This document shows, piece by piece, positions 22,813 to 38,865 of a stretch of 39,198 nt of DNA. The notes beneath the pieces are model-generated. The model searched no databases, had not been told where the DNA came from, and was given only the letters and a program-made list of their open reading frames with translations. Source of the DNA: Kiritimatiellia bacterium. GTDB lineage: Bacteria > Verrucomicrobiota > Kiritimatiellia > RFP12 > UBA1067. Numbering within the stretch: the stretch's first letter is position 1; each line of letters begins with the position of its first letter. The position numbers and the translations under genes were made by a program. The stretch is from contig JAFSTA010000248.1 in assembly GCA_017450695.1 (NCBI GenBank), positions 1-39,198 of the forward strand, written 5' to 3'.

Positions 22813-23772
22813 CTATACGAAACTGATGCGCTGCACTTCGCCGCGATAGGTCGCACTGCAAACGTACTGCATCGCCGTGGGCGAGAAGCGCTCCTCGTGG
22901 AACTTGTGAAGGTGACCGCAGAGAATGCCCTTCAGCAGTTTCTGCTCCTTCAGCCAGGCGACGAACGCGCCTGTCGGCGCATCGGTTTTCTGCTGCTCGG
23001 CCCGGTGTGGATTGTATTTGGAGGTAATATCCAGCGGTGCGCCAGTGACATACGCGGGGGTCGAAGCGTTCCCTCGTTGCTGATCCGCACAAAGTCCCGG
23101 CAGATAGAACGGCACGTGGCACATCAGGATGATCGGAAGTCCCTTCTCAACCTCCTTGCGGAAAAGCTCATGTTGCGCCTCGGTGACGTTATAATAGACA
23201 TCATCGATCGCCACGAAGTTCACGCCGTTCACCACGCGGGAACAGAAGGTCAAGTCGTTCGGGAACGCAGCCTGCACGCGGTCATAGCTGTCCGCCTTGT
23301 ATGCCGCATCCTCCTTCGCCTCGCCGACATACTTGCTGAACTCGTGGTTCCCAGAAGAGGCGTACCAGTCGTCGCTGGCGAACGCACGTTCCGTGTAAGC
23401 GAGATTCGCCTTGCTCACGAAGTCGATCATATCGCCGGTATGCAGCAGCAGGTCGCCTTTCGTACGCGCCAGGTGAACCGCCTCGTCGAAATAATGTTCC
23501 GACCAAGGGAAGATCGTGTGGCGTCCCATCGCCAGACTCACCTTGCGCGCGTCATTCTCGCTCGCGTTGACCAGCGTCAAGTGCGTGTCCGACACCTGCA
23601 TCGCCGTGAACGGCTTCGAGGCGCCCGCTTCAATCCGGATTTCCTTCACCTTCAGCGGCGCGAACTTCGCGCGTGGTTTCGCATCCTTCCCGTCAACGCC
23701 ATACGCGGCAAGTTCCGACGCGAGCAAGGCACCCGCGCTCACCTGCAAAAAACTCCTTCTACTGCACTTCAT
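22813..23772 (-). CDS. Tat-exported metallophosphoesterase, paralogue 1
   Basis: The protein has 319 residues from the ATG at 23772 (GGAAGAG upstream); the frame runs 38 codons further without support. The N-terminus is a twin-arginine signal (CSRRSFLQVSAGALLAS). The calcineurin-like core is complete: SDTH (Asp62, His64), GDMIDF, GNHEFS, CHVPF and GHLHKF, all ligands for a two-metal site. It probably hydrolyses phosphoester bonds outside the cytoplasm. It is very close to the product of 27102-28235 along its whole length but stops right where that protein begins its LDTR-repeat tail. The gene stands apart from the SUMF1/phosphoesterase block, beyond the trkA/H remnant and the palindrome array. 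Confidence 0.92.
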   Translation of the reverse strand: MKCSRRSFLQVSAGALLASELAAYGVDGKDAKPRAKFAPLKVKEIRIEAGASKPFTAMQVSDTHLTLVNASENDARKVSLAMGRHTIFPWSEHYFDEAVHLARTKGDLLLHTGDMIDFVSKANLAYTERAFASDDWYASSGNHEFSKYVGEAKEDAAYKADSYDRVQAAFPNDLTFCSRVVNGVNFVAIDDVYYNVTEAQHELFRKEVEKGLPIILMCHVPFYLPGLCADQQRGNASTPAYVTGAPLDITSKYNPHRAEQQKTDAPTGAFVAWLKEQKLLKGILCGHLHKFHEERFSPTAMQYVCSATYRGEVQRISFV

Positions 23773-25809: not shown

Positions 25810-27081
25810 TTAACGGACCGTGCAGAAGACGCGGAAACCGAAGCCGCCGTCTTGTAGCGTCTTGTTTTTGTCGCCGCGCCGTGCAGCGCTGCGGGCGGTC
25901 TTGCAGTCCCCGCCGACACCGGCGGAACGTGCCACAATATACGTGCCCGTCGCGGGACCGACAGGGTTCGTCACCGCAGCCGTCCCCAGATTGGCTTGAT
26001 AAAAGTCCAGGCACCACTCATACGTGTTGCCGGCCATGTCGTAGAGTCCCCAGCGGTTTTCCTTCTTCGACCCGACACGGATCGGCGCCATCGTCGCGTT
26101 GGACTCCGGACGAACCCAGGCGATCTCGGCGATTTCCGGATGCGTGTAGGCACCGTGATTGTTTACACCTGAATACGGGCACGCTTTGGTCATGAAAAAC
26201 CCGTTGTTGTAGGAGGCTGTCTCGCCCGCGCGGGCGGCGTACTCGAACTGCGCGTCTGTCGGCAGGTCGAAACTGTCGATCCCTGTCTTCTTTCGAAGCA
26301 GTCCGAAGAAAGTCGTTTCCGCCACATCGTTCGATGCCGGCCAAACGACACCATTCCCGCGGAGATCGTTCCACGAAACCCTGTTGACGGGACAGTAGTC
26401 GTTCGCTCCGGCAACATTGGAAGGAAGAGAACCGACCACCTTTTGGTATTGGGCACGCGTCACTTGAAACACACCGGCGAAGAACGGCTGCGTGAGCGTC
26501 ACGGAATGCTGATCCTCGTTATTATTACGCCCGATTTCAGTCGTGGGACTTCCCATCAAGTAGGTTCCTGGAGGACAATACTTCAGCCAGAGCTTATCCG
26601 AGAGGTTGGCGTTCACCGCCGGATCCGGCGAGTCAAAGGTGAAGGAAACCGGATACGCCGTGGCTGAGCTGCCACCGGAGATATCGATCACCATGTAAGA
26701 ACCGGGTACGGTGTAGAGTCCGTTCGTCGGCCACGCATACACCACGGCGACGGCGTTCGACTCCAAATGCCCGTACCAGTCGGAGCGCGCGCTCCACTCC
26801 AAGTGGCGGTTTCCCGGCTCGACAAAGGTCGAGAAGTTCCGCGAGAAGTCACCGGACACGGTCTTGATCTTCTCCATGCCGATGGAGACGCCATTCGTAA
26901 GGATATCGAGTCGCACGAAGGCCGCCTCGCCGTTTGATTCCAGCGTGTAATCGACCTTCACGCGGTGGGTGCGCATATCCTGCTCGTAGATCACATTCCG
27001 CACCTGCAACGGCGTTTGCGCCAAAGCGCCACATGCGGCGACTCCCCAAACAACTCCCGTTGCCAACAGCACTCGTTTCAT
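25810..27081 (-). CDS. secreted SUMF1-fold protein, paralogue b
   Basis: The protein has 423 residues from the ATG at 27081 (GGAAAGGAG upstream); the frame starts eight codons earlier. A signal peptide (to about 22, ending GALAQ) is followed by a beta-rich N-terminal domain (about 24-165, WSARSDWYGHLESNAV) and a SUMF1/formylglycine-generating-enzyme-like domain (PPGTYLMGSP, LPTDAQFEYAARAG, GLYDMAGNTYEWCLD, GFGFRVFC). The active-site Cys pair of true FGE is not visible: the region reads GGDCKTARSAARRG with one Cys. It is therefore more likely a binding or structural member. It starts 21 bp after the stop of the LDTR-tailed phosphoesterase gene and is closely related to 28375-29640. Confidence 0.88.
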   Translation of the reverse strand: MKRVLLATGVVWGVAACGALAQTPLQVRNVIYEQDMRTHRVKVDYTLESNGEAAFVRLDILTNGVSIGMEKIKTVSGDFSRNFSTFVEPGNRHLEWSARSDWYGHLESNAVAVVYAWPTNGLYTVPGSYMVIDISGGSSATAYPVSFTFDSPDPAVNANLSDKLWLKYCPPGTYLMGSPTTEIGRNNNEDQHSVTLTQPFFAGVFQVTRAQYQKVVGSLPSNVAGANDYCPVNRVSWNDLRGNGVVWPASNDVAETTFFGLLRKKTGIDSFDLPTDAQFEYAARAGETASYNNGFFMTKACPYSGVNNHGAYTHPEIAEIAWVRPESNATMAPIRVGSKKENRWGLYDMAGNTYEWCLDFYQANLGTAAVTNPVGPATGTYIVARSAGVGGDCKTARSAARRGDKNKTLQDGGFGFRVFCTVR

Positions 27082-27101
27082 CTTATCTCCTTTCCTTCCC
27101 G

Positions 27102-28235
27102 TCACCGGGTAAACAAAACCGTTCCGATCCTCGTCTTCGTGTCCAGCACGGACTCACCGTCCGTGCGTCCTTCCGCAAAAAACCTGGTGTCGAGCAGACT
27201 CTCCGTGTCCGTACCGCCCGCCGCGTGCCAGCGCGTGTCCAGCCTTCCCGGCAACGACGCGTCACTCGCCGGGAAACTCCCGGAAGCAGGGGTTGAGACA
27301 TCCGCCGCAAACGTGATGCGTTGCACCTCCCCCTGGAAGTTGCCGCTACAGACGTACTGCATCGCCGTGGGCGAGAAGCGTTCCTCATGGTACTTGTGGA
27401 GGTGACCGCAGAGAATCCCTTTCAACAACGGCTGCTCCTTCAACCAAGCGAGAAAGTCCGCCGTCGGCTGGTCGGTGCGCTGCTGTGCCGCGCGGGCGGA
27501 CGGATACTGCGAGGTCACTTCCAACGGCGCCCCCGTCACATACGCGCTGGAATCTTGTGCCAACTGCTCCGCGCACAGTCCCGGCAGATAGAACGGCACA
27601 TGGCACAGCAGAATGATCGGAAGCCCTTTCGCGACCTCTTGCTCGAACAGCGCGTGTTGCGCCTCGGTGACGTTGTAATAGACGTCGTCGATCGCCACGA
27701 AGTTGACGCCGTTCACCACGCGCGACGCGAAGGTGAGGTCGTTCGGGAACGCCGCCTGCACGCGGTCATAACTCTCCGCCTTGTACGCGGCATCCTCCGT
27801 CGCCTCGCCGACATACTTGCTGAACTCGTGGTTCCCGGAGGTGGCGTACCAGTCATCCGCCGCAAACGTCTGCGAAGCGCGTTCCAGATTCCCGTAGCTC
27901 ACGAAGTCGATCAGGTCGCCCGTATGCAGCAACAATTCGTTGCGGGCACGGGCGGTAGCGACGGCCTCCCCCAAATAGTATTCCGCATTCGGGAAAATCC
28001 GGCTTCGGCTGTTCGCGAGATTGATCTTGCGCGTGTCGCCCGCGTCATCCTCGTTCACCAGCGTCAGGTGCGAATCCGAAACGTGAAGCGCGGAAAATGG
28101 TTGCGTCACATCAACAGGGATCCGAATCTGCTTGATCGACAACGGCGGCAACTGGGAATCCGCACGCGCGCCAAGCCGCGACGCCAACCACGCGCCCGCG
28201 CTCATCTCCAGAAACTCTCTTCTGCCGCACTTCAT
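27102..28235 (-). CDS. Tat-exported metallophosphoesterase 2 with LDTR-repeat tail
   Basis: The protein has 377 residues from the ATG at 28235 (GAAAGGG upstream; a TTG at 28241 is an alternative). It has a twin-arginine signal (CGRREFLEMSAG) and a complete calcineurin-like metallophosphoesterase core (SDSH, GDLIDF, GNHEFS, CHVPF, GHLHKY), near-identical in long stretches to the protein from 22813-23772. After the point where the paralogue ends it carries about 65 more residues with three LDT(R/K) units: RLDTRWHAAG, LLDTRFFAEG, VLDTKTRIGT, ending VLFTR. The same tail module ends the 99-residue protein at 29683-29982. The tail has the look of a sorting or attachment signal. The gene lies between the two SUMF1 genes. 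Confidence 0.92.
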   Translation of the reverse strand: MKCGRREFLEMSAGAWLASRLGARADSQLPPLSIKQIRIPVDVTQPFSALHVSDSHLTLVNEDDAGDTRKINLANSRSRIFPNAEYYLGEAVATARARNELLLHTGDLIDFVSYGNLERASQTFAADDWYATSGNHEFSKYVGEATEDAAYKAESYDRVQAAFPNDLTFASRVVNGVNFVAIDDVYYNVTEAQHALFEQEVAKGLPIILLCHVPFYLPGLCAEQLAQDSSAYVTGAPLEVTSQYPSARAAQQRTDQPTADFLAWLKEQPLLKGILCGHLHKYHEERFSPTAMQYVCSGNFQGEVQRITFAADVSTPASGSFPASDASLPGRLDTRWHAAGGTDTESLLDTRFFAEGRTDGESVLDTKTRIGTVLFTR

Positions 28236-28374: not shown

Positions 28375-29640
28375 TTACCGCACCGTGCAGAAGACGCGGA
28401 AACCGAAACCGCCGTCGTGAAGCGATTTGGCTTTATCGCCGCGACGATAGGCACTGCGGACACCGGTGCAAGCACCACCGATTCCCATCGAACGGACGAC
28501 AGGGTTGGTTCCGGTCTCTGGACCAACCGGATTCGTGACGGCCCGCTTCCCCAGGTTCGCCACATAGTTGTCGAGGCACCACTCGTAGATGTTGCCAACC
28601 ATATCGTACAGCCCCCAGTTGTTCGGTTTTTTCGACCCCGCGCGAATTTTCTGGAACGGGGAGTTGCTTTCCGGACGGCACCAGGCGATCTCCGCAATCT
28701 CGGCGTGATAGGTGTTATTCGCATCGGGACACGCCGACGAGAAAGAGAATCCATTGTAATAAGTGTTGGTCTCGCCCGCGCGGCAGGCGTATTCCCACTG
28801 TCCCTCCGTCGGCAGGTCGAAGGTGTCAATCCCGGTCTTGGCACGAAGCACCCCCATAAAGCTGGCGGCGGCAACATCGTTGGACGCCGGCCACGCGCAA
28901 CCGGCTCCACGCGCGTCATTCCAGCTTGCCGCGACAGGACAGTAATCATTGGCTGCAGAACCATCGCTAAACGGGAGAGAACCGATCACCTTCTTGTACT
29001 GGGCACACGTTACATCGAAGACACCGGCAAAGAACGGCTCTGTCAGGGTCACCTGATGCTGATCCTCGTTGTTCGATCGTCCGATTTCAGTCGTCGGGCT
29101 TCCCATCAGGTAGGTTCCGGGAGGACAATACTTCAGCCAGAGCTTATCCGAGAGGTTGGCGTCCACCGCCGGGTTCGGCGAGTCAAAGGTGTAGGAGACC
29201 GGATACTCCGTGGCGGAGGTTCCGCCAGAGAGATCGACCACCATGTAACAGCCAGGTACGGTATAAAGTCCGTTCGTCGGCCACGCGCGAACCACCGCAA
29301 CCACGTTCGACTCCAGATACCCGTACCAGTCGGAACGTGCGCTCCACGACAGGTGTCGAGCACCGGGTTCAACAAAGGTCGAGAAGTTCCGCGAAACGTC
29401 GCCGGACAAGGTCTTGATATTCTCCATGCCGATCGAGACGCCGTTGGTCAGGATGTCAAGGCGAACGAAGGCAGGCTCATCTGCCTCCAGCGTATAATCA
29501 ACCTCCACGCGGTAGGTTCGCCGGTCCTGATGGAAATTCACGGTCTTCACCTGAATCGGCGTGAACGCATCCGTAGCCTCCGCCACGCCCGCACCAACGC
29601 ACGCCAGCAACGAACAGCACCACCACATCATCTTTTTCAT
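28375..29640 (-). CDS. secreted SUMF1-fold protein, paralogue a
   Basis: The 421-residue protein parallels 25810-27081: signal peptide (about 1-22), beta-rich N-terminal domain (WSARSDWYGYLESNVV), and SUMF1-like domain (PPGTYLMGSP, LPTEGQWEYACRAG, GLYDMVGNIYEWCLD, GFGFRVFC), with the same C-terminal residues FGFRVFCTVR. The FGE-type cysteine pair is missing here too (GGACTGVRSAYRRG). No sulfatase gene is present in the window, in keeping with a non-FGE role. An adequate AAAGGAG site precedes the ATG. It follows the tail-only gene by 42 bp and precedes the phosphoesterase gene by about 140 bp. Confidence 0.9.
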   Translation of the reverse strand: MKKMMWWCCSLLACVGAGVAEATDAFTPIQVKTVNFHQDRRTYRVEVDYTLEADEPAFVRLDILTNGVSIGMENIKTLSGDVSRNFSTFVEPGARHLSWSARSDWYGYLESNVVAVVRAWPTNGLYTVPGCYMVVDLSGGTSATEYPVSYTFDSPNPAVDANLSDKLWLKYCPPGTYLMGSPTTEIGRSNNEDQHQVTLTEPFFAGVFDVTCAQYKKVIGSLPFSDGSAANDYCPVAASWNDARGAGCAWPASNDVAAASFMGVLRAKTGIDTFDLPTEGQWEYACRAGETNTYYNGFSFSSACPDANNTYHAEIAEIAWCRPESNSPFQKIRAGSKKPNNWGLYDMVGNIYEWCLDNYVANLGKRAVTNPVGPETGTNPVVRSMGIGGACTGVRSAYRRGDKAKSLHDGGFGFRVFCTVR

Positions 29641-29682: not shown

Positions 29683-29982
29683 CTACCGAATCATCAGGAA
29701 CGTACCCACCGGCGTCTTCGTGTCCAGTACGCTCTCCGCGCTCCAAGCCTCCGCCCAGTAACGCGTATCGACCAACTCATCGTCCGCCGCCACAGCATCG
29801 GCGCTGTACCGCGTGTCCAGTCCGCCGCCCGTCACCGCACCGCTGGAAACCGGCAAGACGAATGAAGCCGCCGCCGCGACAGAAAACGCGGCACAAACCG
29901 CAAGTCCGCAACAAACCAGCGGACGCCACGCCGACCTCACCACTTTGCCCGCACCGATGAAAGAAGTTCTTTCTCTTTTCAT
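29683..29982 (-). CDS. small secreted protein consisting of signal and LDTR tail
   Basis: The protein has 99 residues from the ATG at 29982 (GAAAGG upstream; a start at 30042 in the same frame is less likely). Residues 1-40 are a long signal/anchor with a basic front. The rest, from about residue 54, is almost only the tail found at the end of metallophosphoesterase 2: GLDTRYSADA, LVDTRYWAEA, ESVLDTKTPVGT, ending FLMIR. It is either a stub left by deletion of a larger tailed protein or a genuine small partner bearing the signal. It is the first gene of the minus-strand block running to 25810. Confidence 0.7.
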   Translation of the reverse strand: MKRERTSFIGAGKVVRSAWRPLVCCGLAVCAAFSVAAAASFVLPVSSGAVTGGGLDTRYSADAVAADDELVDTRYWAEAWSAESVLDTKTPVGTFLMIR

Positions 29983-33810: not shown

Positions 33811-34956
33811 TTACCGAAGGCGCCACGTGTCCAGGGGCGTGGTGGAATCGCCGCCGAAAAAGCGGGCGAGGACTCCGCGTTCGGAAACTTCCAGCCGGAA
33901 GAATCCGGCGGCTACGGAGCGAATATAACGCACCAGCGCGGGACGGTATTCCGCCAGATAGTTACGTCCGTCAACGGTGGTCTGGAGTCCCCCGTAGTTC
34001 GACGGAAGGGTCTGTGACGGAGAGATCGTGGCAAGCCCCTCCCGCGTCCAGACGCTGTTGGCGATAATCTGCGTGATACGCCCTTCGTCAGTCACAACCT
34101 CGGCCAGTTCGGTCGTGTGGATGTGGCCGGCGATGACGATTACGTCGTGCTGCAACAGCAAGGAACGCAGGGTGCGCCGGTTGGTATGTTCGCTGTGTCC
34201 GTAGAGAATCCAGTTGTAGCTGCCGCAGTCCGAGGGAATGACCGGTCCGTGCGTGACCAGGAACTTGTATCGTGCATCCGCATGGGCGGTGAGGGCGTTG
34301 CGAATCACAGAGAGACTGGGGGAAGTGAAGTCAACATGAATCCAAAGATCATGTCCCTGCCTATAGCTAAAATTCGTGGCAGAGACAGTCTGCCCTGTCT
34401 CTGCCGTCATCTGCCCATTCATCCAAGAACGGTATGCGGAAGCAACGTTATTGTTCGCGCCATTGCGGATGTCGTGGTTGCCCACGACCAGTCGCAACGG
34501 AAGTCCTCCCAACGCGGTCTTGATCTCGGAAAAGGCATCCGTCGCCATCTGCGCGTGAACGGACGCATTGTTGCAGTCACCCTGAATCAAATCGCCAACC
34601 TGAATCGCGAAGGCAGTATCGCCTCGCCTTGCGGATGCGGCGGCGGCAAGCAAACGCGGAATCCGGTTCGCCCACATCTCGCCGTTGCGCGTGAATTCGG
34701 CGCGTTGAATCGCCTCCAGCGACGCGCTCACGTCGCTTCCCGGATAGGCGGCGTGATAGACCGTTTCGGGCGCCTTGTCAAAGTGCGTGTCACCTAAAAC
34801 GAGGACGGAGTACTCCCCTTTCCGTCGCACAGCGGGAACGGGTATCGGCGCGGACGCGGAGCGCATCTGCAGATTCACCGAATCACTCGCGGAGAGCCGC
34901 AGGGGAAATGAGGCTCCCGCACAGAGGCCGGTCTTGATCCAATCGCGCCGAGTCAT
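33811..34956 (-). CDS. Tat-exported metallophosphoesterase 3
   Basis: The 381-residue protein starts at the ATG at 34956 with AAGGAG six bases upstream. It has a twin-arginine signal (MTRRDWIKTGLCAGAS) and a calcineurin-like core with all metal-ligand motifs: LGDTHF, VGDLIQGD, VGNHDIRN, VTHGP and AGHIHTTE. It is only distantly related to the two paralogues in 22.8-28.2 kb. Its last residues TTPLDTWRLR recall the LDT units of the tail module in weaker form. It begins nine bases after the stop of the beta-strand repeat gene, so the two are co-transcribed; it may act at the cell surface with that protein. Confidence 0.9.
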   Translation of the reverse strand: MTRRDWIKTGLCAGASFPLRLSASDSVNLQMRSASAPIPVPAVRRKGEYSVLVLGDTHFDKAPETVYHAAYPGSDVSASLEAIQRAEFTRNGEMWANRIPRLLAAAASARRGDTAFAIQVGDLIQGDCNNASVHAQMATDAFSEIKTALGGLPLRLVVGNHDIRNGANNNVASAYRSWMNGQMTAETGQTVSATNFSYRQGHDLWIHVDFTSPSLSVIRNALTAHADARYKFLVTHGPVIPSDCGSYNWILYGHSEHTNRRTLRSLLLQHDVIVIAGHIHTTELAEVVTDEGRITQIIANSVWTREGLATISPSQTLPSNYGGLQTTVDGRNYLAEYRPALVRYIRSVAAGFFRLEVSERGVLARFFGGDSTTPLDTWRLR

Positions 34957-34965
34957 TGCAGCTCC

Positions 34966-37900
34966 TTACCGCACCATGATCATCAAACCGAGACGGGTGA
35001 CGAAAATTGCACGTTCCGTCTTCTGCACAACCCATCCGGTCCCCGAAAGGTTGTTGTCATCCAGATTTCCCGTGATTGTCCCGTCGGTCACTTCCACGAG
35101 CTTCCAGACATTGGCCAGGTTCTGCAAGTCTGTGATGACAAGTGATGCCGACGAGAGGTCGAGATTTCCCTTGGCGAGAATCTTGTCACCCACCTCTGCC
35201 GCGATCGTTCCGGTGACCGTTCCGCCACAGGCGAGATTCAGTGTCCCCACGGTATTTTCCCCGCCGGGATAGAGTGTACCGGTGACGGCAAGCGTTCCGT
35301 TCGTCACCGTACCGGCGCCCGCGAGTGCCGCCTGTGAGAACGACTGCCCGTTGAGGTCGAGCGTGGATCCGGAGGCAAGTGTGATCAACGCGGGACGGAC
35401 CAGTTCCGCGTCCGGGCCATTCTGCGCGTTGGCCGCCAACTGGGCTTCGGTAAGTACCGCGTTCCAGACGCGCACCTCGTCGTAGGTTGCCGACGCATCC
35501 GAGTCTCCCGAAGAAAACGAGCGTCCAAGCCAGCAATGGGTTTGTACGAGATTCCCCAAATCCCACCCTTGGGCGGCAGTGAGTGACCCCTTGTTGATCG
35601 TGTTGCCAGCTGCGTCCTGCTGATAAACCGTAATCAGCCAACGGCCATTGGCCAACAGCTCAAAGGTCACGCCGAGATGATAAGCCACAGCCTTGGTGAA
35701 CGAGAGCCAATATTTGGTTCCGCCGCTCGTGCCACTGAGGGTGCCGAGCGAAATGCCGCCGTCAGCGGAATTACTGTTGTTTTTCGAGAAGTTCATGAAG
35801 ATACGGTTGCTGGTATCATTCCCGAAGTTCATGATACGCCCCCACGAGCGGTAGGTGTTGAGCGTGACCCACATCTCCAGTGTCACCGGCGTTCCGTTCG
35901 TCGGCAGGACACCGGGGCCGAGATCAATCGCACCCGTACCCTGCGCACCGCCCTTCAGCGTGCAGGTACTCTCTCCAACCGTCACGCCGGACGCCTTGTC
36001 GATGGTGGCGGTCTGACCTCCGACGGAATCTTCGAGGTTTCCGTTGAAGCTCCAGCGGTGGAGCAGTGGAAGTGTCGAGACTGGCTCTGCCGCCGCCAGC
36101 TTCAACGTCCCCGCCTGCACGTCCACCTGGTGGAACCCATTGAGGCTGCCGACGGAAAGGGTCCCCGCTCCCTTCTTCGTGAGCGGGGCGAAGGCGGGCG
36201 TGTCGATGTCGAAATCCGGCACGGAGATGTTGTAGTTTTGCGTGTCAAAGGTGACGCCGCCCGCGCCGATCGTCACGTTCGTGAGATTGGAGAAGTACAA
36301 CTGAGAGGCGGAAGGAGTGAGCGTGGCGACGAAAGTGCCGCCATCGACAGTCATGTCCATCGTCTCGTTGTTGCTATTGCGCTCTACCCATTTTGCCTTG
36401 ACGGTACCGCCGTCACGCAAGATGAACGATCCCTTTGCCTTCGAGCTGCCGACACCGAAGCGGAGCCGTCCCTGCCGCAGATCGAGTACGCCGGAGTCGC
36501 AAACGGTGACGATGCCCGTTCCTTCTTCGCCGATGATGAGTCCATAGTTCCCCGTGCTGGTAGCGGTTCCGCCGGAGAGTGTGTAGGTGCCGAATCCAGG
36601 GGCGTAACGTCCGACACATCCCCAGCCGCCGAAGTTGAGGTTTCCGCCCGTTTGCGTCATCGTGCCAATCCCATAAACGCCCACCTGAAAATTCGCATTG
36701 GCCGTGAACGTGCCGCCGGAGAGCGTCATCGTCCCGTTCCCGCGCTTTGTCTTGTCCTTGTCGTCGATATACGAGCCGCCGATCATCGTGTTTCCGGAAG
36801 AGTCCACCACCGAACCTCCCGACTGCACGAATTCGCCGGTCCCCAATCCCGCGACTGAGAAACCCTTGCAGGTGACTTTGCCGCCGGTCAGAATGCTCTT
36901 GCCGTATTCTCCGCTTACAGCCGCATGGTTGTATTCCCCGCTGATGCTGAGATTGGTCGCGACGCAAAGTGTCCCGCCGTACACCTTAACCATCTTCGCG
37001 GTGGACGCCACATTGCTGTGAACCAGCGTGCCACCCGCAATCCGCCATTCGGGCGACCCCGTGATACCGCCACCCAGCACCAACGTCCCGCTGTTGCGTT
37101 TGCCGAAATAACGGGAGGTGGAGCCGGTGATCGCGCCGGAAATCGTAGCGGTTCCCGCATTCACCGCCACGTCCAGATTGGTCGCCGTCATGTTCATCGG
37201 ATTGCGGAAGTCCAGCGAGGAATCCGCACCGGTATCGTTTAGCACAAAGTAATTACCGATCGGATCGCTCCCCACCATCAATGTCCTTGCGTCATTCCCC
37301 GCGTTGATCGTGAGCGGCGCGCCGATCGCGGAAAACCGCGTGTAGAATCCCGCGTCGGTCTCCCACTGCCCCGCGCCCGTACCCGGAATTTGCGTCATCG
37401 TTCCGGTCGGTGCCCAGGTGCCGCCACGAAACCGGAGGTGCGACGTAACGGGAATGCCGGTACCGTAATCCGCGCGCAAGGTGCCGCCGTACAGGAGCGT
37501 TTCCCCCGTCCAGTTGTTCGCCCCCGTGAGCGTGAGGGTCCCGTTTCCGATTTTTGCAAACCCGACACCGGGGTTCAGCGTAACAACGTCCGCGATTTCC
37601 GCAACCGTATCGACCAGGAAACCAAAGAACGAATCTGCGGGAAGCAGTGCCTGAATCGCCGTGATCTCTGCCGCCGTCCAGTTCGCGGGATTGATCGCGA
37701 GCGTCGTTCCGGAGGCAACCGTCAACTTGTTGCGCCAGTCAATCACCGACGGCGTGTCGAGCGCCAAGACACCTTCCTGAAGAACGGTCTGCCCCGCGTA
37801 GGTGCAATTGGCCGCAATGCGTAGAATGCCCGCGCCGGTCTTGGTGAGTCCTCCGGTCGAACCCGCGTCCGCCTCCAACGGCTGGGCGACCGAGCAGTCG

Positions 37901-38865
37901 CGCCCGGCGGGAATTTGGATTTCCATGCCGCCGTTGCCGATGAGGACGTGCGTGCAGTTGGTCAGGTACCCGGAGATAAATCCGCCGATAAACTCGACCT
38001 GCGACTGGGATCCGTGCGCGGTCAGTTTACCCCCGTCGAAGAGGTAAACGGCGGACTTTCCAAGCTGGGCGTTTGTGATACGCTGTCCGATGCGCCGCGC
38101 ACGCAACTCGCCGCCGTCGCGCACAGTCACCGTACCGGTACCAAGGCGGAACTGCCCCTCCGTGGAGAAGACCGTTCCCGCGTTCTCAATCACCATCGTT
38201 CCAGCAATACCGGCGGTGTTGTCCGCCATAATCACGCCCGAATCAAACCCCGTGTGCAGAACCTGCGCACCATTCGACAGCAACCACTCGCCGCTCGCAC
38301 CGCTACCGAACGGGATACATAAATAGCCGGATGAAGTGACCGTGCCGCCCGTCTGGATCAAACGCCCGACGGAATTGTTTGCATGTCCGATATGCAAGGC
38401 ACGTCCACCGAGTTCGAGAGTCCCGGAAGCGATTGTCCAGACACCGGTTGAATCTGCCCCGCTGGAGACTTCAACCGTATCACCCGTCACCTTCAACGTA
38501 CCGTACTGAATCAACGTACCGGTGGAGCCGGCAGCCAGTCCCAGGTGGAGTTGCTTCGACGAAAGTTGGGCATCCGCCTCCAGCGTAAGCGATGCCCCCG
38601 CCCCTGCGACATTGCCAATCCGCACGTAATCGGTGGTATTCGTCTTACCGCTGGAAATCGTAACCGCGCCCGATCCGATCAATGCGCCAGCGCCCGATGC
38701 CGGCACGGCTTCGGTACTCCAATTGCCCGGCACATTCCAGTCACCCTCCCCACCGTTCCAGATCGTCTCGACCGTCTCGGCAGAACAGGCCACGGCGACA
38801 CAACAAAATCCCACCGCGACTCGTAGTCTGGCGAACGCACACTCTGTCCTCAACGAAAACTCCAT
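34966..38865 (-). CDS. giant beta-strand repeat protein with LamG-like domain
   Basis: The 1299-residue protein has a signal peptide (about 1-29, ending VACSAE). A long repetitive beta-helix-like region (to about 930) contains autotransporter-associated beta-strand repeats (KTGAGILRIAANCTYAGQT, LTGANNWTGETLLYGG, KKGAGTLSVGS), plus many SGG-T units (LSGGTFTANANFQVG). A LamG/concanavalin-like domain occupies about 940-1150 (HRWSFNGNLEDS, TYDEVRVWNAVLTEAQ), followed by a last beta-repeat stretch. No C-terminal beta-barrel is visible, so it is not a classical self-exporting autotransporter. It ends VTRLGLMIMVR, similar to the ends of metallophosphoesterase 2 and the tail-only protein. It probably is a surface adhesin or glycan-binding protein. 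CGGAGAG precedes the ATG. Confidence 0.92.
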   Translation of the reverse strand: MEFSLRTECAFARLRVAVGFCCVAVACSAETVETIWNGGEGDWNVPGNWSTEAVPASGAGALIGSGAVTISSGKTNTTDYVRIGNVAGAGASLTLEADAQLSSKQLHLGLAAGSTGTLIQYGTLKVTGDTVEVSSGADSTGVWTIASGTLELGGRALHIGHANNSVGRLIQTGGTVTSSGYLCIPFGSGASGEWLLSNGAQVLHTGFDSGVIMADNTAGIAGTMVIENAGTVFSTEGQFRLGTGTVTVRDGGELRARRIGQRITNAQLGKSAVYLFDGGKLTAHGSQSQVEFIGGFISGYLTNCTHVLIGNGGMEIQIPAGRDCSVAQPLEADAGSTGGLTKTGAGILRIAANCTYAGQTVLQEGVLALDTPSVIDWRNKLTVASGTTLAINPANWTAAEITAIQALLPADSFFGFLVDTVAEIADVVTLNPGVGFAKIGNGTLTLTGANNWTGETLLYGGTLRADYGTGIPVTSHLRFRGGTWAPTGTMTQIPGTGAGQWETDAGFYTRFSAIGAPLTINAGNDARTLMVGSDPIGNYFVLNDTGADSSLDFRNPMNMTATNLDVAVNAGTATISGAITGSTSRYFGKRNSGTLVLGGGITGSPEWRIAGGTLVHSNVASTAKMVKVYGGTLCVATNLSISGEYNHAAVSGEYGKSILTGGKVTCKGFSVAGLGTGEFVQSGGSVVDSSGNTMIGGSYIDDKDKTKRGNGTMTLSGGTFTANANFQVGVYGIGTMTQTGGNLNFGGWGCVGRYAPGFGTYTLSGGTATSTGNYGLIIGEEGTGIVTVCDSGVLDLRQGRLRFGVGSSKAKGSFILRDGGTVKAKWVERNSNNETMDMTVDGGTFVATLTPSASQLYFSNLTNVTIGAGGVTFDTQNYNISVPDFDIDTPAFAPLTKKGAGTLSVGSLNGFHQVDVQAGTLKLAAAEPVSTLPLLHRWSFNGNLEDSVGGQTATIDKASGVTVGESTCTLKGGAQGTGAIDLGPGVLPTNGTPVTLEMWVTLNTYRSWGRIMNFGNDTSNRIFMNFSKNNSNSADGGISLGTLSGTSGGTKYWLSFTKAVAYHLGVTFELLANGRWLITVYQQDAAGNTINKGSLTAAQGWDLGNLVQTHCWLGRSFSSGDSDASATYDEVRVWNAVLTEAQLAANAQNGPDAELVRPALITLASGSTLDLNGQSFSQAALAGAGTVTNGTLAVTGTLYPGGENTVGTLNLACGGTVTGTIAAEVGDKILAKGNLDLSSASLVITDLQNLANVWKLVEVTDGTITGNLDDNNLSGTGWVVQKTERAIFVTRLGLMIMVR

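Follow-up and report, generated by a model that had tools for sequence, protein, structure and literature searches.

A seven-residue C-terminal tag that looks like an address label for surface proteins in some Kiritimatiellae

In a 39,198-nucleotide stretch of a Kiritimatiellia bacterium genome (contig JAFSTA010000248.1, the window), a 99-residue protein and a metallophosphoesterase end in a similar repeat-bearing tail, raising the question of what this tail is and what it might do. An earlier note, made from the letters alone, had described it as an LDT(R/K)-repeat module with a possible role in surface sorting or anchoring. It placed both genes at the right coordinates, and both lie on the minus strand. 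The features are as follows.

29683..29982, minus strand: small exported protein, 99 residues (translation, alignment with 20 homologues, AlphaFold2)
29686..29706, minus strand: tag GTFLMIR, C-terminal in the 99-residue protein (translation, alignment)
27102..28235, minus strand: metallophosphoesterase 2 (MPE2, PF00149) with appended tail (translation, Pfam, AlphaFold2)
27105..27296, minus strand: MPE2 tail, residues 314-377, three LDT(R/K) units, predicted disordered (translation, alignment, AlphaFold2)
27105..27125, minus strand: tag GTVLFTR, C-terminal in MPE2 (translation)
22813..23772, minus strand: MPE2 paralogue, untagged, a natural control (Pfam)

Translation of the 99-residue protein gives a signal-peptide-like N-terminus (approximately residues 1-39), three (L/V)DT(R/K) units and a final GTFLMIR, the C-terminal end reading ...GGLDTRYSADAVAADDELVDTRYWAEAWSAESVLDTKTPVGTFLMIR. 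AlphaFold2 predicted a helix at residues 10-39, compatible with a signal peptide, and no confident structure beyond it; the model is weak, because its mean pLDDT is only 57. MPE2 starts with a Tat-like RR-x-FL and ends in ...GRLDTRWHAAGGTDTESLLDTRFFAEGRTDGESVLDTKTRIGTVLFTR. Its AlphaFold2 core has pLDDT >90 over much of its length, and the tail (residues 314-377) about 25-35. Alignment of the two tails over 59 columns showed 48% identity, confirming a common C-terminal module of three (L/V)DT(R/K) units followed by GTxxxxR. Neither the 99-residue protein nor the MPE2 tail matched any Pfam or NCBIfam family. The paralogue at 22813-23772 ends with its catalytic domain, as do 15 of 16 further MPE homologues from GTDB genomes, the exception being a tailed near relative (L108). 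The MPE2 tail is therefore an added suffix, separable from the enzyme as the earlier note had proposed.

The likeness of the two tails is more than chance: a profile built from them recovered further copies, some with marginal E-values, both in the same genome and in 17 others from its family. Most were small exported proteins of about 77-110 residues, laid out as signal peptide, LDTR, DTR, LDTK or LNTK, and GTxxxxR. These LDT-repeat proteins accompany arrays of genes for FGE-like (formylglycine-generating-enzyme-like) proteins, an association absent from the earlier note: an FGE-like gene adjoins at least 16 of 21 aligned small tagged proteins, the others lying near contig ends or being unclear. 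Two such genes lie in the window.

28375..29640, minus strand: FGE-like gene 1 (PF03781), untagged (Pfam, PDB fold matches)
25810..27105, minus strand: FGE-like gene 2 (PF03781), untagged (Pfam)

FGE-like gene 1 begins 42 bases downstream of the 99-residue gene, and the start of FGE-like gene 2 overlaps the end of MPE2, giving a closely spaced minus-strand order of 99-residue protein, FGE-like 1, tailed MPE2 and FGE-like 2. FGE-like proteins have a C-type-lectin-like fold that serves both enzymes and surface binding. PDB matches of FGE-like 1 were PvdO, PorK, Treponema TvpA and SUMF1, and it seemingly lacks the usual catalytic Cys pair (judged by eye in an unaligned region). The whole genome contains 47 PF03781 matches. 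It is unusually rich in FGE-like genes, several of them in tandem arrays of two or three, and the arrayed genes encode an N-terminal beta-sandwich-like region. Several arrays carry the tag on the first FGE-like gene itself, and arrays with no recognisable tagged protein also exist (C258 in the same genome, C94 in G001). Three sequences of G003 (L135 41-1873, L136 1-1830 and L137 1-1503) have GFMFSVR or GTIISLR endings ahead of FGE-like genes, which may be further tag variants.

Across array proteins the ending G-T-hydrophobic-R was kept while the remainder varied. The tag consists of Gly-Thr, four mostly hydrophobic residues and Arg (rarely Lys), followed by the stop. The LDT repeats were rejected as a general signal because the tag lacks them outside FGE-array proteins; they are a local elaboration, found mainly in small secreted proteins near FGE-like arrays in one family of rumen Kiritimatiellae. 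The repeat module described in the earlier note is shared by both tails, but what other genomes conserve as its core is the final seven residues. A 742-residue protein of G019 (L126 11935-14160) places LDT units on a larger protein and ends in LVDTRSSVLDWSGMHLIDTRPIVGTLLLVM, with Met replacing Arg as the final residue.

Matches to the DNA pattern GT-x-[FILMV]3-R-stop were tallied across 334 genomes of the class, and the reversed pattern served as a control. Because the strict form overlooks variants (final Lys, GF, GM, GL), both window copies among them, all counts are minimum values, and a genome with none may still have the tag. The genome containing the window gave 11 matches against 0 for the control; a first-order Markov simulation put the chance expectation at about 1.3, an imprecise figure because only 2 events were obtained in 8 Mb. 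Ten relatives gave 20-59 matches each, with controls of 0-3: G056 59 vs 1, G036 37 vs 0, G041 36 vs 0, G019 34 vs 3, G020 32 vs 0, G118 32 vs 0, G059 28 vs 0, G167 27 vs 0, G032 20 vs 2 and G181 20 vs 1. Most other families of the class had 0 or 1, and among 388 genomes drawn from the phylum, those outside the class had at most about 5 each, near the control. Low strict counts also occur inside the tag-rich family (G026 0, G055 3, G057 4), at least partly because variants exist, such as GMMLIVK in G055. For nine of the 11 matches in the window's own genome, the tag was observed to end an ORF of 940-1827 residues in frame. Inside proteins, 643,499 residues of fetched loci held just 5 copies of the motif; since these loci were chosen for a terminal motif, the ratio of C-terminal to internal copies is biased and was set aside, and only the internal rate is meaningful.

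Loci fetched from several tag-bearing genomes encode large tagged proteins, many of them 600-1800 residues long, whose domains include PATR, beta-helix, LamG, lipase, phosphodiesterase and choice-of-anchor Q. A simple hydrophobicity rule, used in place of a dedicated predictor, called a signal-peptide-like N-terminal segment in 51 of 60 complete tagged ORFs, and 57 tagged proteins fell into 27 groups with no detectable homology between them. The choice-of-anchor Q domain belongs to a type whose name reflects the varied anchoring signals that follow it; in L242 it stops 11 residues short of the protein end, and in other proteins its GCYE ending is followed by the tag. The window holds a large protein of the PATR/LamG kind.

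34966..38865, minus strand: large PATR/LamG autotransporter-like protein, 1299 residues (Pfam, NCBIfam)
34969..34989, minus strand: probable variant tag GLMIMVR at its end (translation; comparable variants GMMIFIR and GMMLIVK)

No barrel domain was detected in this protein, and its GLMIMVR ending, assigned by eye, is probably a tag variant. A third metallophosphoesterase gene (33811-34956) follows within 10 bases.

The prevalence of PATR, LamG and beta-helix proteins among the carriers, and the beta-strand-like composition of the tag, could mean that it merely closes a beta-strand of such passengers or of an adjacent domain and has no sorting role. We consider this structural explanation unlikely, though it is the strongest of the alternatives. 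The same type of tag ends MPE2, FGE-like proteins and the proteins of 77-110 residues that have no confident fold past the signal peptide; the distance from the last domain to the tag varies; the carriers fall into the 27 groups given above; and PATR-type secreted proteins of a sampled tag-free genome have different endings.

The tag is placed exactly at the C-terminus, is abundant in some genomes, and occurs on many non-homologous proteins, most with N-termini resembling export signals; the MPE2 tail is disordered in its model. We therefore favour, with a probability of roughly 0.65, the reading that the last seven residues are a C-terminal sorting or export signal for surface proteins. The sorting or anchoring role proposed in the earlier note thus fits the data, namely a short suffix on many unrelated exported proteins and PEP-CTERM endings on comparable proteins of sampled relatives, but the signal proper would be GTxxxxR. 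In the corresponding pathway, the protein would be exported through its N-terminal signal peptide or Tat signal, and a flexible or beta-rich passenger would present its free C-terminal peptide. A putative envelope machine would then recognise this peptide and move the protein to the outer surface or fix it there. Recognition by a dedicated machine, the outer-surface destination and any cleavage of the tag are steps that we infer. In the FGE-array subfamily, the small tagged LDT protein could partner or anchor the untagged FGE-like proteins next to it at the surface, and gene order suggests that it may display them. A broader proposal, which we regard as evenly balanced, is that certain Kiritimatiellae possess a so far undescribed system for exporting proteins to the outer surface or anchoring them there. 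It would recognise the free C-terminal peptide of seven residues on dozens of proteins in a genome, and in one sub-branch a tiny tagged protein with LDT repeats would display the FGE-like arrays.

The neighbours of tagged genes include no recurrent candidate machinery gene, and the protease or sortase-like gene that the earlier note suggested looking for was not found next to them. Among the papers searched, none dealt with Kiritimatiellae in combination with sorting, exosortase or FGE.

Some protease-recognition peptides are likewise short, hydrophobic and at the free C-terminus, which would suit a degron or quality-control tag read through its free carboxylate by a PDZ-type protease; this is improbable for a suffix that a genome can place on dozens of large exported proteins and that is kept on proteins not all expected to be unstable. 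An exosortase substrate of unusual type is no more probable. In its favour, an exosortase was found in all 31 genomes tested; it is there whether they are tagged or not, and was dropped as a discriminator of tagged genomes, since it does not track the tag and would not explain its distribution. The tag has neither a PEP motif nor a transmembrane helix, and classic PEP-CTERM endings exist apart from it in G055, G262 and the window's own genome; those in tag-free G262 and tag-poor G055 come from small samples of secreted proteins. In the window's own genome, a PEP-CTERM-like protein (L323 6438-8795) lies directly upstream of the second exosortase (G000:C277:8833-9573).

Least probable is a divergent or minimal type IX secretion signal, which the Gly-hydrophobic-basic strand that can end type B domains would favour, but the T9SS sorting-domain models (NCBIfam, CHU_C/TIGR04131, Por-tail) matched none of seven tagged proteins at E up to 10, and SprA (TIGR04189) was found in 0 of 28 genomes, ten of them tag-rich, in a search that gave no positive-control match. 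T9SS cargo likewise has an N-terminal signal peptide and a C-terminal signal (PMC9143113), but known type B signals require five motifs within the last 100 residues (PMC12618676).

If the tag is a sorting signal, it would let the surface proteome be predicted from sequence alone. Its counts in individual genomes already form a phylogenetic profile with which to look for the cognate machine. Signals of this C-terminal kind have more than once been the route to a new sorting enzyme, as with sortase, exosortase and rhombosortase. A short signal that lacks a helix and is confined to a single class of gut bacteria, most of them uncultured, would imply that recognition follows a different principle. 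Since it closes dozens of unrelated exported proteins across that class, the tag resembles an address label for surface proteins that has not been described before.

Like known C-terminal sorting signals in general, the tag is a suffix on many non-homologous exported proteins within one genome. PEP-CTERM signals consist of a PEP motif, a transmembrane helix and basic residues. As in the PEP-CTERM/exosortase system, tens of exported proteins in a genome can carry the tag, many of them not otherwise related, with PATR-type and choice-of-anchor proteins among them; unlike PEP-CTERM, the tag spans about seven residues and lacks the Pro-Glu-Pro motif, the transmembrane helix and the basic cluster, with, position by position, only 3-5 hydrophobic residues before a single final Arg. 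With the GlyGly-CTERM/rhombosortase system it shares a Gly in the motif and its place as a C-terminal suffix on non-homologous proteins, whereas GlyGly-CTERM is tripartite, with a Gly-rich motif, a transmembrane helix (about 22 residues) and a basic cluster (PMC3237569), an arrangement that position-wise inspection of tagged C-termini did not reveal. The type IX secretion C-terminal domains (types A and B) also combine an N-terminal signal peptide with a C-terminal signal free of a transmembrane helix, but those signals are either folded Ig-like domains or stretches of about 100 residues that contain five motifs, and the tag is not domain-sized (PMC12618676, PMC9143113). The likeness to PEP-CTERM and T9SS signals drawn in the earlier note is thus functional only, because neither architecture is present. 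Proteins of the FGE-like fold (PvdO, PorK/GldK, Treponema TvpA, SUMF1) belong to the same fold family as the untagged neighbours, and are counterparts of the genomic partners of tagged proteins, not of the tag itself. Judged from its residues, the tag differs in anatomy from LPXTG, PEP-CTERM, GlyGly-CTERM and T9SS domains; its distribution resembles that of PEP-CTERM and GlyGly-CTERM, while it has the defining parts of neither.
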